Shown: piece by piece, positions 1-20,078 of the stretch | Layout: each line of letters begins with the position of its first letter | Numbering within the stretch: position 1 is the first letter of the stretch | Origin: Tritonibacter litoralis | Lineage (GTDB): Bacteria > Pseudomonadota > Alphaproteobacteria > Rhodobacterales > Rhodobacteraceae | Assembly (NCBI RefSeq): GCF_009496005.1 | Contig: NZ_WIBF01000014.1 | Span: 1-64,000, forward strand | Reading direction: 5' to 3' | Length of the DNA: 64,000 nt | The notes under the pieces: model-generated | Databases searched by the model: none | What the model was told of the DNA's origin: nothing | Seen by the model: the letters and a program-made list of their open reading frames with translations, nothing else | Translations under genes and position numbers: made by a program

Positions 1-126
1 CTCTCATAAGCAGATTTTGACACCTGCACTATGGCGCATTGCGACGCCGGTTGAAGCAGGAGCCATCCACCCCATCAATTTTGTCGTTGGACAATATGAT
101 CTTATGAAGAGCGCCCAGCCATTCTC

Positions 127-13967: not shown

Positions 13968-15824
13968 TCATTCCCAATCCGCACTGGTGATCCCAAAGGA
14001 TTTAATGCGGGAATAGACCGTGGTTGGACGCATGTCCAAAAGGGCCGCTGCGCCTGTTGCGCCTGACACCTTGCCCTTGGTCGCCCGCAACGCCGAAATC
14101 AGATTGGCCCGCACAATCGCCTGCAGCTCGGCTTCGGTTTTAATATTGTCCAAGCTTGGGCCACTGTCTGACACGCTGCCTGACAGTTCGATCTGCAACT
14201 TGCTGCCCGTCGACAAGATTGCCGCGCGTTCGATGACATTGCGCAGCTCCCGCACGTTACCGGGCCAGGAATAGTTCTGCAGTTGATACATGACCCGCTC
14301 TGTAATCTTGGGGACCGGGCGGTTCAGCTGCTGGCAGGCCAGTTTAAGCAAATGCAGCGCCAATTGCGGGATATCATCAGGCCGATCACGCAACGGCAGG
14401 CAGGTGATCGGAAAGACGTTGAGATGCATAAAAAGGGACTCGCGCAGTTTGTCTGCAGCGGACGCGCGCCCCTGTGACAGGGTCGTCGCCGAGATCACAC
14501 GGATGTCCAGCGGTCGCTCACGCGTGTCCCCCAGACGTGTCACCGTATTGGTCTGCAGCGCATACAGGAGCTTGCCCTGAATATCATGTGGCAGCTCTTC
14601 GACTTCGTCCAGAAACAGGGTACCACCATGGGCCAGTTCCAGCTTGCCGGGCTTGTCTTCTTTGGCGGCCTGTGGCCCCCCGCGCAGCTGCCCGAACAAT
14701 TCCGCCTCGACCGCTTCGGGGACAACAGAGCTGCAGTTGAACTGGATCAGGGGGCGGCGACGACGCGGACTGCCTTGGTGGATCTCTTTCGCGACCAAGG
14801 ATTTGCCGGTGCCCGGCTCGCCTGAGATCATGACAGTCACATCGGTTTCCGCAACCAGATCCACACGTGCCAGAACCTGTTTGGTAGCGGTCGAGCTTCC
14901 AATAATCGCGTGGTGAGCTCGTTCCGAATTGATCTCTTCCTGCAGATACGCGTTTTCCTGTTCCAACCGATCCCTAAGATCGGCCACCTGTTGCAGCGCG
15001 TTTTTCAGCTTCTTTTCGTTTTCTTTGCGGTCCGTGATGTCGCGAAAGATCACCACAGCCCCAGCCAGGATCTGGTGGTCATAAATCGGCGTCGAGATGT
15101 ATTCGACCCGGATCGGCTTGCCGTCTTTGCGCCAGAACACCTCATCCTCGATGCGGTGGACCTGTTCGAACCGAAAGGACTTATAGATCGGGCAATCCTG
15201 ATGGAAATAGGGCTCGCCGGACAAATGATGGTGGTGGATGATCGAGTGAATGTCCTTGCCCAACAAATCTTCGGTGGTCCAACCCAGCATTTCTTGGGCG
15301 GCGCGGTTAACGAATGTTGTTTTACCTTCGGCGTTTAATCCATAGATCCCTTCGCCGGCGGCATTGAGGATCAATTGGTTGCGCCGCTCCAGCTCGGAAA
15401 AAAAGCTTTCGGCCCGCTTCCATTCATCAAGGCCCGCACGCTGAAGCTCGGCCACTTCGGCCACATGCGCGCGGCGATCCATGGCGTCCAGATCAATAAT
15501 CAACAACAGAACTTCGCCCGGCCGGTCGGCGACCTTGCGGCCGCGCAATTCACAGCGCACCCAAGCGCCGTTTGGACGTTGCAGATCTACGCGGCGTGTC
15601 CAGGCCTCTCCGCGGGTGTCGACCTCATCCATAAACACCATAAACGCGCCGATCTGGCGCCCCAGGAAACGCACGAACGGCGGCAATCGTTCGCGGACCA
15701 GGTCCAACAAGCGACAGGCGTGATCGTTGATCTCTAGGATCTGGTCCGTCTGGGTACACAAAACCAGCGCGGCTTCGGGTAAGGCCGCGGCAATTGAGTC
15801 GGAAGGAAATGCAGTATCAGGCAT
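13968..15824 (-). CDS. cynF: PAS-AAA+-Fis regulator, CynF-like, lacking the GAFTGA loop
   Basis: A 618-residue regulator built as an N-terminal PAS-like region (about 10-115), a second PAS domain (about 145-265, ending FRDITDRKENEKKL), a short coiled coil (265-300), an AAA+ domain (305-535; Walker A GEPGTGKS at 335-342, Walker B GTLFLDEV at 401-408) and a Fis-type helix-turn-helix (about 570-610). The position of the sigma54-contacting GAFTGA loop reads GGPQAA (382-387), and the usual arginine-finger region reads RESLFMHLNV, with His where YYRLNV carries Arg. It is divergent from cynABD-cynS, as cynF is in the Pseudomonas cynFABDS cluster. The ATG at 15824 is preferred over an upstream frame that would translate the tandem palindromes. 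Confidence 0.85.
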   Translation of the reverse strand: MPDTAFPSDSIAAALPEAALVLCTQTDQILEINDHACRLLDLVRERLPPFVRFLGRQIGAFMVFMDEVDTRGEAWTRRVDLQRPNGAWVRCELRGRKVADRPGEVLLLIIDLDAMDRRAHVAEVAELQRAGLDEWKRAESFFSELERRNQLILNAAGEGIYGLNAEGKTTFVNRAAQEMLGWTTEDLLGKDIHSIIHHHHLSGEPYFHQDCPIYKSFRFEQVHRIEDEVFWRKDGKPIRVEYISTPIYDHQILAGAVVIFRDITDRKENEKKLKNALQQVADLRDRLEQENAYLQEEINSERAHHAIIGSSTATKQVLARVDLVAETDVTVMISGEPGTGKSLVAKEIHQGSPRRRRPLIQFNCSSVVPEAVEAELFGQLRGGPQAAKEDKPGKLELAHGGTLFLDEVEELPHDIQGKLLYALQTNTVTRLGDTRERPLDIRVISATTLSQGRASAADKLRESLFMHLNVFPITCLPLRDRPDDIPQLALHLLKLACQQLNRPVPKITERVMYQLQNYSWPGNVRELRNVIERAAILSTGSKLQIELSGSVSDSGPSLDNIKTEAELQAIVRANLISALRATKGKVSGATGAAALLDMRPTTVYSRIKSFGITSADWE

Positions 15825-15859: not shown

Positions 15860-15892
15860 GCGAAATTTCGTAATTTGCGAAATTTCGTAATT
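15860..15892. promoter_or_regulatory. Tandem palindromic operator-like repeats between cynF and cynA
   Basis: A 16-base unit, GCGAAATTTCGTAATT, occurs twice (15860-15875 and 15877-15892). Each unit contains the perfect 10-base palindrome CGAAATTTCG, and the palindrome centres are 17 bases apart. They lie 36-68 bases upstream of cynF and about 220 bases upstream of cynA. A degenerate third copy, GCGAATTTTAG, is at 15950-15960. Binding by CynF or another regulator is inferred from position. Confidence 0.6.
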
Positions 15893-16109
15893 CTAAAAAC
15901 CCCGTAAACACCCATTAACAATTGATTTCAAATAACTTTTTCAAAGTGAGCGAATTTTAGGCGGGCGCTTTTTTTACCTCCTGCTGTCCCGCATGCTTTT
16001 GCCAGTGCGGTTCGACCATTGTGTTTTGGGTGTTTGAGCCGCTGCAACAACCAGCCTGGGGCACAACGCCTTGGGGGACACTCATAAAACACAGAGACAG
16101 GGGTATTTT

Positions 16110-17534
16110 ATGACGCACTTTAAAGACCCGTTTAACCCAAACATCGACGTTTGGAACGAATGTGGCGAGGCTTCTGGTGAGCCTGCGGATCCGTATGCGG
16201 GCCTGACGGCCGAAGATGCAGAGCTTCTGACACGCCGCGCAAAGCAATCCTTGAATCCTGAGGTTGGCATGACCCGCACGCTGGAAAGCGCGGTGATGCA
16301 GGGCCTCTTTAAAACCGACGTTTCGCGCCGTGCCTTCCTGAAGAGCGCAGGCGTCACCGGCGCGTTGGCGGCGGTGGCCACGGTCTTCCCGCTGTCCTCG
16401 CTACAGCTGATGGCCGAAGAAGCGATCAAGAATCTGGAAAAAACCAAACTGACGCTTGGCTTTGTTCCGATCACATGCGCCACTCCAATCATTGGCGGCC
16501 ACGCTTTGGGCTTTTATGAGCGCTATGGTCTGGACGTGGACATTGTAAAGACCGCCGGTTGGGCGGTATCGCGCGACAAATGCCTGAACGGCGAATATGA
16601 CGGCTCCCACCTGCTGTTCCCGATGCCGATGGCAATGTCTCTGGGATTGGGCTCCACTGCACAGCCGTGGAAAGTGGTGTCCAACGTGAACACCAACGGT
16701 CAGGCGATCGTTCTGGCCAACCAGCATATCGATAACCAGGATCCCAAAAACTGGAAAGGTTTCAAATTCGGCGTGCCGTTCGAGTACTCGATGCACAACC
16801 TGCTGCTGCGGAACTATGTGGCGGATGCGGGACTGGACCCGGATCGCGATATCCAGATCCGCGTGGTTCCACCGCCAGAAATGGTTGCAAACCTGCGTGC
16901 AGGCAACGTCGACGGCTATCTTGCACCGGACCCATTCTGTCAGCGTGCGGTCTATGATCAAGTTGGCTTCATTCACAAATTGACCCTGGATCTGTGGAAA
17001 CAGCACCCTTGCTGCGTCTTTGGCCTGTCCGAGAAATTCATCTCGGAAAACCCGAACACCACCATTGCGCTGACCACCTCTATCCTTGAGGCGACAGCGG
17101 CTGCGGAAACCTCTTCGGGGCGTGTGGCCTTTGCGGAATCCATGGCACCGGCCAATTATCTGAACCAGCCTGTTGAGATCCTGAAACAGATCCTGACCGG
17201 CGTATTCCCCGATGGCCAAGGCAACATCAAGAACGTTCCTGACCGGATCTCGTTCATGCCACTGCCGACCCAGACCATGGGCACCTGGGTTCTGGCGCAG
17301 CTGCGTCGCTGGAACTACATCGACGATGACACCAACTATGCAACTCTGGCCGAAGATCTGGTTCTGACAACCACCACCCGTGAGCACATGCGCACGATGA
17401 TGATTGCCGATCAGAACCTGAGTTTCGCTGACGCTGAACAGGACGTTTATGCACCGGTGGATATTCAGGGCCAGACTTTCGACCCTGCAGCGGCGCAAGA
17501 CTTCATCGACAGCCAGCCGTTCACCCACAGTTAA
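16110..17534 (+). CDS. cynA: Cyanate ABC transporter substrate-binding protein, NrtA/CmpA family
   Basis: A 474-residue binding protein of the NrtA/CmpA nitrate-bicarbonate-cyanate family. The conserved core begins LTLGFVPITCATPIIGGHALGF and continues through KFGVPFEYSMHNLLLR, both typical of the family. The twin-arginine signal VSRRAFLKSAGVTGA sits unusually far in, with the arginines at residues 73-74, behind an acidic extension that contains TRRAKQSLNPE. The ATG at 16110 follows ACAGGGG at good spacing. It delivers the anion to CynB/CynD, and cyanase encoded in the same operon makes cyanate the best guess over nitrate. No nitrate reductase gene is nearby. Confidence 0.88.
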   Translation: MTHFKDPFNPNIDVWNECGEASGEPADPYAGLTAEDAELLTRRAKQSLNPEVGMTRTLESAVMQGLFKTDVSRRAFLKSAGVTGALAAVATVFPLSSLQLMAEEAIKNLEKTKLTLGFVPITCATPIIGGHALGFYERYGLDVDIVKTAGWAVSRDKCLNGEYDGSHLLFPMPMAMSLGLGSTAQPWKVVSNVNTNGQAIVLANQHIDNQDPKNWKGFKFGVPFEYSMHNLLLRNYVADAGLDPDRDIQIRVVPPPEMVANLRAGNVDGYLAPDPFCQRAVYDQVGFIHKLTLDLWKQHPCCVFGLSEKFISENPNTTIALTTSILEATAAAETSSGRVAFAESMAPANYLNQPVEILKQILTGVFPDGQGNIKNVPDRISFMPLPTQTMGTWVLAQLRRWNYIDDDTNYATLAEDLVLTTTTREHMRTMMIADQNLSFADAEQDVYAPVDIQGQTFDPAAAQDFIDSQPFTHS

Positions 17535-17610: not shown

Positions 17611-18612
17611 ATGATCCGAAACCTCGATATGCGTAGCTCTTTGTTATCTTTGGTTATTCTAATTGCTGGCCTGTTCATCTGGCAGGTCACGACCTATGTG
17701 CCGGATACAGGTCCAATTGGCGTGGAGCTGTCACAGGCCGAAGAAGACGCATTGCTGGCCAACAACATGTTGCCCGAAGATATTGAGTTTTATGCAAGCC
17801 AGGGCGTTGAGTTTGCCCAGCTGGAACAGATCGCCTCATTGAACCTCTCGCGCGATATGATCGAGGCGGCGGGCGGCATACGTGCGCTTGGCATCAGCGT
17901 ACCGGACCAGGATTCAGCGCCTGCGCCCGGATCGCTGTTCCCCTCGCCTACCTTGGTGGGCAAAGAGCTGTGGGCCACCGTCACCGACCCGTTTTATGTC
18001 AACGGGACCAATGACATGGGATACGGCATCCAGATGGGGTATTCGCTGTTACGTGTTGTGATCGGCTATGCGCTGGCGGCATTGGTTGCGATCCCCTTGG
18101 GTTTCTTGATCGGCATGTCGCCGATGGTCTACAAGGCGTTGGACCCCTTTATCCAAGTTCTGAAACCAATTTCACCGCTGGCATGGATGCCAATTGCGCT
18201 GTTCACCATTGGCGACAGCGAGCTGTCGTCGCTGTTTGTGATTTTCATCTGCTCGTTGTGGCCGATGCTAACCAATACGGCCTTTGGCGTGGCAAACGTG
18301 CGCGCCGATTGGGTAAATGTTGCCCGCACCCATGAGCTGAGCGCGCTGCGCACTGCGGTCACCGTGATCCTGCCAGCTGCGGCCCCCACCATTATCACCG
18401 GCATGCGGATTTCCATTGGCATCGCCTGGCTGGTCATTGTGGCGGCTGAAATGCTCGTTGGCGGCACTGGCATTGGCTACGTCGTCTGGAACGAATGGAA
18501 CGGCTTGCGGCTGGACCGAATGATCGTTGCCATCCTGTTGATCGGCGTTGTGGGCATGTTGCTGGACGCAGCCTTTGCCCGTCTGCAACGCGCCGTCGAA
18601 TACGCGGAATAA
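17611..18612 (+). CDS. cynB: Cyanate ABC transporter permease
   Basis: A 333-residue permease. One membrane segment (residues about 7-27) is followed by an approximately 95-residue extracytoplasmic region, then a BPD_transp_1 domain with five or so membrane segments. The EAA loop reads HELSALRTAVTVILPAAAP, close to the NrtB/SsuC consensus. The long loop after the first membrane segment is seen in the nitrate/cyanate permease group of proteobacteria. A GGAG site precedes the ATG. It lies 76 bases after cynA, with a hairpin between, and 11 bases before cynD. Confidence 0.88.
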   Translation: MIRNLDMRSSLLSLVILIAGLFIWQVTTYVPDTGPIGVELSQAEEDALLANNMLPEDIEFYASQGVEFAQLEQIASLNLSRDMIEAAGGIRALGISVPDQDSAPAPGSLFPSPTLVGKELWATVTDPFYVNGTNDMGYGIQMGYSLLRVVIGYALAALVAIPLGFLIGMSPMVYKALDPFIQVLKPISPLAWMPIALFTIGDSELSSLFVIFICSLWPMLTNTAFGVANVRADWVNVARTHELSALRTAVTVILPAAAPTIITGMRISIGIAWLVIVAAEMLVGGTGIGYVVWNEWNGLRLDRMIVAILLIGVVGMLLDAAFARLQRAVEYAE

Positions 18613-18623
18613 GGAGCGCTGTC

Positions 18624-19532
18624 ATGGCAAAACCATTTCTTTCCATTGAACGTCTGACCCAACAATTCCCCGACGGCGCGGGCGGCACGTTGACCGTGTT
18701 TGAAAACAGCACCTTTGGCGTGGAAAAGGGCGAATTCGTCTGCATCCTGGGCCATTCGGGCTGTGGCAAATCCACCATTATGAACATTCTTGCCGGTCTT
18801 GCTGAACCCACGTCTGGCGTGGTCAAGATGGACGGCAAACATGTCTCGGGCCCGTCATTGGACCGGGGTGTGGTGTTTCAGAACTATTCCCTGTTGCCCT
18901 GGCTGTCGGCGTTGAAGAACGTGACCTTTGGCGTCAAAGCGCGCTATCCGGGTTGGAGCAAGGACAAGGTCGAGGCCCATGCCAAAGAGTATCTGGCGAT
19001 GGTGGGGCTGGACGGCGAGGTGATCAACCGCAAGCCAAGCCAACTGTCAGGCGGCATGCGCCAACGGGTGTCGATTGCGCGGGCCTTTGCCAATCAGCCC
19101 AAACTGCTTTTGCTGGATGAACCCTTTGGCGCGTTGGATGCGTTGACCCGAGGCACCATTCAGGATGAGCTGATCAAAGTCTGGAGCCAGACCGAGCAGA
19201 CCGTGTTCATGATCACCCATGACATTGATGAGGCGATCTTGCTGGCGGACCGGATCTTATTGATGACCAACGGCCCCTTTGCCCGTGTGGCAGAGTCGGT
19301 AGAGATCACCATCCCGCGCCCGCGCAATCGGACCGAGATTGTGGAACATCCCAATTACTATGCGATCCGCAACCATCTGGTTCAGTTCCTCGGCCAGCGT
19401 TCAAAAGAGCTGGCAGGACAGCAGTCCCATGGCGACGATCAATCGCCGGAATCCGTAGTGATCGACAAAACGGCAACCCCGCCCGAGGCTCAATCTGAAC
19501 CCGCGACGCTGCGTGCGGTTAGCAACGAATAA
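18624..19532 (+). CDS. cynD: Cyanate ABC transporter ATP-binding protein
   Basis: A 302-residue single-domain ATPase of the NrtD/SsuB group: Walker A GHSGCGKST, Q-loop FQNYSLLPW, signature LSGGMRQR, Walker B LLLLDEPFGALD and H-loop THDIDEA. A C-terminal tail of about 60 residues, rich in Asp, Gln and Pro, extends beyond the usual end at VEHPNYYAIR. The ATG at 18624 has AAGGAG upstream; the longer frame overlaps cynB out of frame and is not used. It powers CynB import. Confidence 0.9.
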   Translation: MAKPFLSIERLTQQFPDGAGGTLTVFENSTFGVEKGEFVCILGHSGCGKSTIMNILAGLAEPTSGVVKMDGKHVSGPSLDRGVVFQNYSLLPWLSALKNVTFGVKARYPGWSKDKVEAHAKEYLAMVGLDGEVINRKPSQLSGGMRQRVSIARAFANQPKLLLLDEPFGALDALTRGTIQDELIKVWSQTEQTVFMITHDIDEAILLADRILLMTNGPFARVAESVEITIPRPRNRTEIVEHPNYYAIRNHLVQFLGQRSKELAGQQSHGDDQSPESVVIDKTATPPEAQSEPATLRAVSNE

Positions 19533-19607: not shown

Positions 19608-20078
19608 ATGAAAGACGCATTTGAGGTGCCGACCATGATGACAAAAGAAGACGTAACCATGATGATCCTGTCTGCCAAAAAGCAGGCCGGTCTGACCTGG
19701 GAAGGCATCGCCGAGCAGATCGACATGTCTCCTGTGTGGACCCATTCGGCCTGTATGGGCATGAACGGCTTCCCCGAAGAGAAGGCCGAGGCTCTGGTGG
19801 CTGCACTGGCCCTGCCACAGGAAGCCGCAAGCGTTCTGGCCGAGCCGCCCACCAAGGTTTGGGAACAGGCGGTTCCAACGGATCCGTGCATTTATCGCTT
19901 TTATGAGATCGTTGGCGTTTATGGCCCGACCCTGAAAGCGCTGATCGAAGAGAAATTCGGAACCGGCATCATGTCCGCGATTGATTTTGACATGTCCGTG
20001 ACCAAGGTTCCCCACGAGAAGGGCGACCGGGTCAAGGTGGAAATGTCTGGCAAATTCCTGTCCTACAATTCCTGGTAA
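19608..20078 (+). CDS. cynS: Cyanate hydratase (cyanase)
   Basis: The 156-residue length equals that of E. coli CynS. An N-terminal helical domain (about residues 10-80) precedes the compact catalytic domain. The active-site residues are in place: Arg and Glu in YRFYEIVGVYG (E. coli Arg96 and Glu99) and Ser in GIMSAIDFD (Ser122). Cyanase condenses cyanate with bicarbonate to give ammonia and two CO2, as a decamer. A strong GAGGAGG site precedes the ATG. Its place as last gene of the transporter operon identifies the whole operon as a cyanate nitrogen-supply or detoxification system. Confidence 0.96.
   Translation: MKDAFEVPTMMTKEDVTMMILSAKKQAGLTWEGIAEQIDMSPVWTHSACMGMNGFPEEKAEALVAALALPQEAASVLAEPPTKVWEQAVPTDPCIYRFYEIVGVYGPTLKALIEEKFGTGIMSAIDFDMSVTKVPHEKGDRVKVEMSGKFLSYNSW

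Follow-up and report, generated by a model that had tools for sequence, protein, structure and literature searches.

A clade of CynF cyanate regulators, mainly in Rhodobacterales, has probably changed from sigma-54 to the housekeeping RNA polymerase

The CynF-like regulator of the cyanate genes of Tritonibacter litoralis is probably a bacterial enhancer-binding protein (bEBP) that has left sigma-54, binds ATP and aids the housekeeping RNA polymerase from a distal site, a state that its clade would have reached in a single move. Read directly from the DNA, the GAFTGA loop, the second arginine finger, the -24/-12 promoter and rpoN have been lost, the upstream site is shared with outgroup loci, and 60 of 78 loci in the first set have a -10-like element at a fixed distance from that site; activation, the use of sigma-70, the role of ATP, the start site and the order of steps are what we infer from these features. 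From an ancestral tandem-palindrome site, some 130 bp upstream of the predicted start of cynA, CynF would support transcription by the housekeeping RNA polymerase; the promoter would be a weak one of the sigma-70 type (-35 CTTY-like, 17 bp, -10 CANNAT), and ATP would be bound by CynF but probably little hydrolysed. The second arginine finger and the -24/-12 element would have been lost once, on the stem of the mainly Rhodobacterales CynF clade, and the GAFTGA loop, freed of its contact with sigma-54, would then have drifted to many forms.

The window, the whole stretch of 64,000 nucleotides that was analysed, carries a cyanate cluster. The cynF-like gene (13968..15824, minus strand; ATG at 15824, stop at 13968) encodes 618 amino acids and, as expected of a cynF orthologue, is divergent from cynABDS. 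These are all on the plus strand: cynA, substrate-binding protein (16110..17534), cynB, permease (17611..18612), cynD, ATP-binding protein (18624..19532, a start that is our choice within the ORF 18495-19532), and cynS, cyanase (19608..20078; TIGR00673 above cut-off). In the regulator, a PAS domain was found together with a Sigma54_activat AAA+ domain (PF00158, E=1.3e-50) that carries both Walker motifs, A and B, and the C-terminal end aligned with NifA up to residue 612. A GTG at 15911 was considered as the cynF start and rejected; a conserved DNA site falls inside that longer reading. In the available text of PMC6627978, Pseudomonas pseudoalcaligenes CECT5344 has the same divergent cynFABDS order and a putative sigma-54 promoter before cynA, and its CynF is essential for cynABDS expression and required for cyanate use. 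Compared by description rather than by alignment, the window differs from CECT5344 as presented there in having no sigma-54 promoter, GAFTGA loop, second arginine finger or rpoN.

The sequence-only reading had described an AAA+ domain with a lost GAFTGA loop, an altered arginine-finger region and intact Walker motifs, and each of these points was borne out. GGPQAA replaces GAFTGA at residues 382-387, counted from the ATG at 15824 (14664..14681, encoded from 14681 to 14664 on the minus strand); the substitution keeps the full length of the loop. Alignment of the arginine-finger stretch RESLFMHLNV (14415..14444, minus strand), which reads LRESLFMHLNVF, showed that R461 is retained and that the second Arg is H467 (14424-14426). 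In our assignment of the numbering these residues are equated with R162 and R168 of PspF, both of which are termed finger residues in the available text of PMC4132715. Walker A (GEPGTGKS, 14799..14822) and Walker B (GTLFLDE, 14604..14624), also on the minus strand, are intact, and since the switch Asn and the Walker B Glu remain as well, ATP hydrolysis is possible in the window protein. A sigma-54-dependent bEBP is expected to carry GAFTGA and both arginine fingers, and the window CynF has GGPQAA and H467 in these places. With the loop lost and the nucleotide-binding residues kept, it resembles in these two respects the GAFTGA-less bEBPs that work with sigma-70.

These changes were followed across related proteins. 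The clade set consisted of the window protein and the best 80 of at least 576 candidates, hence the relatives nearest to the window; nearly all of the 80 are Rhodobacterales, with Oricola and Zhengella (L077, L088) belonging to Hyphomicrobiales. Eighteen full-length matches (L107-L124) served as outgroup, shorter ones (L125-L130) being excluded. Three outgroup members (L119, L120, L124) have neither cynA nor cynS in the stretch examined and were assigned to CynF by their sequence only, and the L108 match carries one TGA and gave a partial row. The loop alignment proposed in the sequence-only reading gave a clear division: Thr or Ser at loop position 4 is found in 10/81 clade proteins, the residue being changed in the other 71, as against 18/18 in the outgroup (GAFTGA or GAFSGA; Thr in 16, Ser in 2). 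The second arginine finger is present in none of the 81 and in all 18 outgroup proteins. Residues linked to hydrolysis vary in the clade, namely the sensor I Asn (kept in 8/81), the switch Asn (9/81) and the Walker B Glu (33/81), and the Glu after the Walker A Lys is found in 0/81. Residues for nucleotide binding are kept there: the Walker A Lys, the sensor I Arg and the first finger in 81/81 each, and the sensor II Arg in 78/81. Every one of these residues is found in 18/18 outgroup proteins.

A quick tree, built with no mixture model and with the catalytic columns left out, separated clade and outgroup with a support of 100. It required one change for the second Arg, at least five for GAF[TS]GA and 20 for rpoN. 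On this tree the GAFTGA loop has decayed repeatedly within the clade, where the column entropy of loop position 4 reaches the 99th percentile for the AAA+ domain. Loops of the form GGP[QHN]AA make up one subclade of five that includes the window; the GGPNAA and GGPHAA of these neighbouring orthologues, together with the absence of the second Arg from 81/81, exclude chance. A loop mutation specific to the strain was likewise rejected, since the second finger is changed in 81/81 and loop position 4 in 71/81. Five of the 80 relatives read GAFTGA yet have no second Arg, no -24/-12 element and no detectable rpoN, so loss of the arginine finger and of the promoter seems to have preceded that of the loop.

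Drift of the loop and of catalytic residues is also what would be seen if CynF were decaying and inert, with the cyn genes run by NtrC or constitutively. We consider this improbable, for the cynF reading frame is intact and dN/dS is low (0.087-0.125 on three pairs, at a saturated dS of 1.8-2.4; two further pairs yielded no dS). Moreover, every one of the 78 clade loci that have cynA in reach keeps the upstream site described below and has cynF divergent from cynA.

Searches for sigma-54 itself gave a consistent result in the genus. PF04963 had no match in the organism's own genome (99.8% complete), nor in any of the 18 genus genomes, own included, of which one is only 67% complete and one is in 3 contigs at 100% completeness; of all 61 genomes searched with it, 26 matched, as did 4/14 controls. 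The sole PF04552 match in the own genome scored 23 bits over 42/160 positions and lies inside another protein, which we take to be a LacI-type regulator. Because no rpoN was found, it is close to certain that sigma-54 does not control cyn in this organism, and the sigma54-independent cyanate control suggested earlier is thereby supported.

Beyond the genus, rpoN was present in 18/18 outgroup genomes and in 23 of those of the best 80 relatives (14/40 and 9/40), with none found in 57, several of the negatives being MAGs; Tateyamaria sp. (L038) and Ruegeria lacuscaerulensis (L031) are examples of environmental Rhodobacterales that carry a clade CynF and gave no rpoN match. These 23 genomes could be taken to mean that sigma-54 was overlooked elsewhere and that CynF still uses it through a variant loop. 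Such a reading is hardly credible in view of the genus genomes (0/18, the 3-contig one among them) and of the loss of the second Arg throughout the clade. Retention of a -24/-12 element in the clade loci whose genomes have rpoN was considered and rejected, since none of the 22 that could be scanned exceeded 10.9. Nor does loss of the loop track rpoN genome by genome: the 23 with rpoN show the same finger loss, and none was found for the five GAFTGA readers.

Ten bEBP-like AAA+ proteins (loci L001-L012, two matched twice) persist in the own genome, in which sigma-54 was not detectable. GAFTGA or a close form was found in none of the ten, nor in six weaker matches (L013-L018). By our reading the second Arg is kept in 8/9 of the proteins other than CynF, so CynF is unusual among them; the NtrC-like protein keeps its arginine finger. 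L005, presumably HupR-like, has also lost the second arginine finger, along with Walker B.

The promoter region of cynA was scanned with sigma-54 weights and sigma-70 frequencies entered by hand and compared with single-base shuffles. Counts omit loci without cynA in reach (L069, L089 and L103 in the clade; L111, L119, L120, L121, L123 and L124 in the outgroup). A -24/-12 element precedes cynA in 12/12 outgroup loci, with scores of 12.0-14.9 out of a possible 14.9, and none of the 78 clade loci exceeded 10.9. The best-scoring candidate of the window's cynF-cynA interval reached 10.6 of 14.9, a value not above shuffles (p=0.11), and falls within cynA, in keeping with the earlier remark that the divergent cyn promoter has no clear -24/-12 element.

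A predicted upstream activating site (15860..15888, no strand assigned) is common to both groups. It is a 29-bp tandem palindrome, near ACGAAATNTCGTAAATTACGAAATNTCGT, in which two CGAAATTTCG palindromes stand 17 bp apart; a search of the own genome that allowed up to 3 mismatches found no second copy. The site was found in 78/78 clade loci, which were the training set of the matrix (scores of 10.9 and above, against at most 3.7 for 390 shuffles), and in 11/12 outgroup loci, which were not used in training (20.7-40.8; L122 fails with 2.4). By these scores the enhancer appears to have been kept while the sigma-54 promoter was lost.

Relative to cynA, a position near -130 is far for ordinary sigma-70 activation. 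The site could also serve cynF: it is 35 bp upstream of that gene's ATG in the window, and many loci have it 34-37 bp from where the cynF match starts. Clade CynF might be a repressor or autoregulator acting at a site by its own start, on cynF or through looping on cynA, with cyanate relieving it. This closeness to cynF and the failure of the core promoter spacing in 17/26 loci of a second sample (below) would agree with such a role. We regard it as unlikely, because a -10 element is found at a fixed distance from the site in 60/78 loci of the first set and, in outgroup loci, this site is accompanied by a -24/-12 element ahead of cynA. In addition, the Pseudomonas CynF is needed for cynABDS expression, according to the available text of PMC6627978. 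The AT-rich block beyond the upstream site was also considered as a cynF promoter, which led nowhere.

Activation of cynA by CynF, the reading that we prefer, calls for a core promoter, and a candidate of the sigma-70 type was found. In the window it would consist of a predicted -10 element, CATGCT (15992..15997, plus strand), with a start near A16004, and a predicted -35 region, TTTTTT (15969..15974, plus strand); both are weak. AGGCGG (15959..15964, plus strand), about 72 bp past the upstream site, is possibly a relic of the -24 element. Across the clade, the hexamer [CT]ANN[AC]T was found within 3 bp of +105 from the end of the site in 60/78 loci (19 at the next best place), and in 27 of 37 divergent representatives with less than 75% CynF identity (at most 8 elsewhere). 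When the representatives were anchored on the -10 hexamer alone, T stood at -23 in 26/27 and A at +12 in 67%, the latter rising to 81% in the 60 loci; these two positions indicate sigma-70 promoter geometry with a 17-bp spacer. Further upstream, CTT occurs near +81 in 22/37 representatives (next 10) and GGC[AG] at +70..76 in 14/37 (next 6). L107 and L108, which resemble the window most among the outgroup loci, have the -24 element at +72 and +69 and the -12 element at about +83 and +80, roughly where the predicted -35 region of the window lies. The other ten outgroup loci have the -24 element at +58 to +60, apart from one at +83.

This coincidence suggests that the -35 box derives from the old -12 box, and the new sigma-70 promoter may have arisen when a -10 element was gained 17 bp further downstream. 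The complete scenario, a family-wide change of partner in one step that kept the signal domain, the enhancer and the operon, turned the -12 TTGC into a -35 box and left an ATP-binding, non-hydrolysing ring, is put forward tentatively, as one somewhat likelier to fail as a whole than to hold. Transcription of cynA may start elsewhere, since the averaged sigma-70 matrix scan gave its top peaks in AT-rich DNA at +44..48, followed by +104 and then +62..64; for the group of six to which the window belongs, the maximum was at +62..65. Conservation across the clade extends to AT-rich blocks that lie between the upstream site and the predicted core promoter, in the window at 15913-15939 and 15952-15956 (about +25..51 and +64..68); perhaps they are part of a promoter, of cynF or cynA, or the site of a bending protein.

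A second sample was drawn from the order: 27/244 genomes had CynF at E<=1e-110, 26 of them besides the window's own. Several of the 26 loci appear to come from the same species as loci of the first set, with the same site or best motif, so that the two samples are not independent. In this sample rpoN was found in 1/26, the second Arg was absent from 25/25 readable rows (that of L156 being unreadable), no -24/-12 element was detected in 26/26 loci (highest 10.9) and the upstream site was present in 25/26. The -10 pattern was at the expected distance in 9/26, and in none of the six most distant loci (L157-L162). Loss of the sigma-54 features is thus general in both samples, and the particular core promoter is not shared throughout the clade. 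The same sample showed the cyn cluster to be patchy in the genus, with no CynF at E<=1e-110 in three of its genomes, G007, G009 and G011.

That bEBPs without GAFTGA can act with sigma-70 had been pointed out in the sequence-only reading for Rhodobacter capsulatus NtrC and TyrR, and the literature agrees. In the available text of PMC10274813, activation with sigma-70 is reported for R. capsulatus NtrC, for which ATP binding rather than hydrolysis is essential, and Caulobacter NtrC and Vibrio VpsR are GAFTGA-defective bEBPs tied to sigma-70 promoters. TyrR, DhaR and HupR are placed in the same class in that of PMC3162934. The sigma-70 role of CynF is proposed by analogy with R. capsulatus NtrC, which, as described in PMC10274813, differs in that its loop is deleted rather than substituted at full length, and in its signal and domain order. 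Caulobacter NtrC, VpsR, TyrR, DhaR and HupR are not CynF orthologues, and in what is available of these sources no enhancer kept across a sigma switch is described for them. The original report on R. capsulatus NtrC is said to be that of Bowman and Kranz in 1998.

A bEBP of Jannaschia sp. CCS1 with Glu at loop position 4 is listed in a genome without sigma-54, and a sigma-70 dependency was suggested for it (Francke et al. 2011, PMC3162934); the available text gives it no CynF name and no promoter or finger analysis. GAFEGA loops are found in three clade CynFs (L074, L079, L151), and the Jannaschia protein may, at a guess, be another CynF. An activator other than CynF, AprX, is described for Cereibacter and its relatives, where its presence goes together with that of rpoN and a sigma-54 promoter (available text of PMC11999139). 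No paper on a sigma switch of CynF was found in our literature search, which had most subscription papers outside its coverage. GAFTGA-less sigma-70 bEBPs are thus known, and the new element would be an orthologous family that switches with its enhancer retained. The transfer of a sigma-54 activator to the housekeeping polymerase with its target retained is difficult to study, and CynF offers a natural case: living bacteria on either side of the switch share the regulator, the enhancer and the operon, and intermediates that still read GAFTGA exist too, so the order of steps is testable. If the proposed explanation is true, the loss of rpoN in many Rhodobacterales may have been made possible by such moves of nitrogen regulators. 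Sigma-54 dependence should not be read from GAFTGA alone, and a label of sigma-54-dependent on the clade CynFs would mislead.

The cynA genes of L026, L027, L038, L059 and L071 are 87-91% identical to that of the window, the value for other relative loci being about 48-54%. These five loci and the window (16004-16110) also have their cynA start at a greater distance from the upstream site, by about 60-110 bp. In L059 a window-type cynA stands beside a distant CynF (62%), and cynABD thus seems to have been exchanged independently of cynF.
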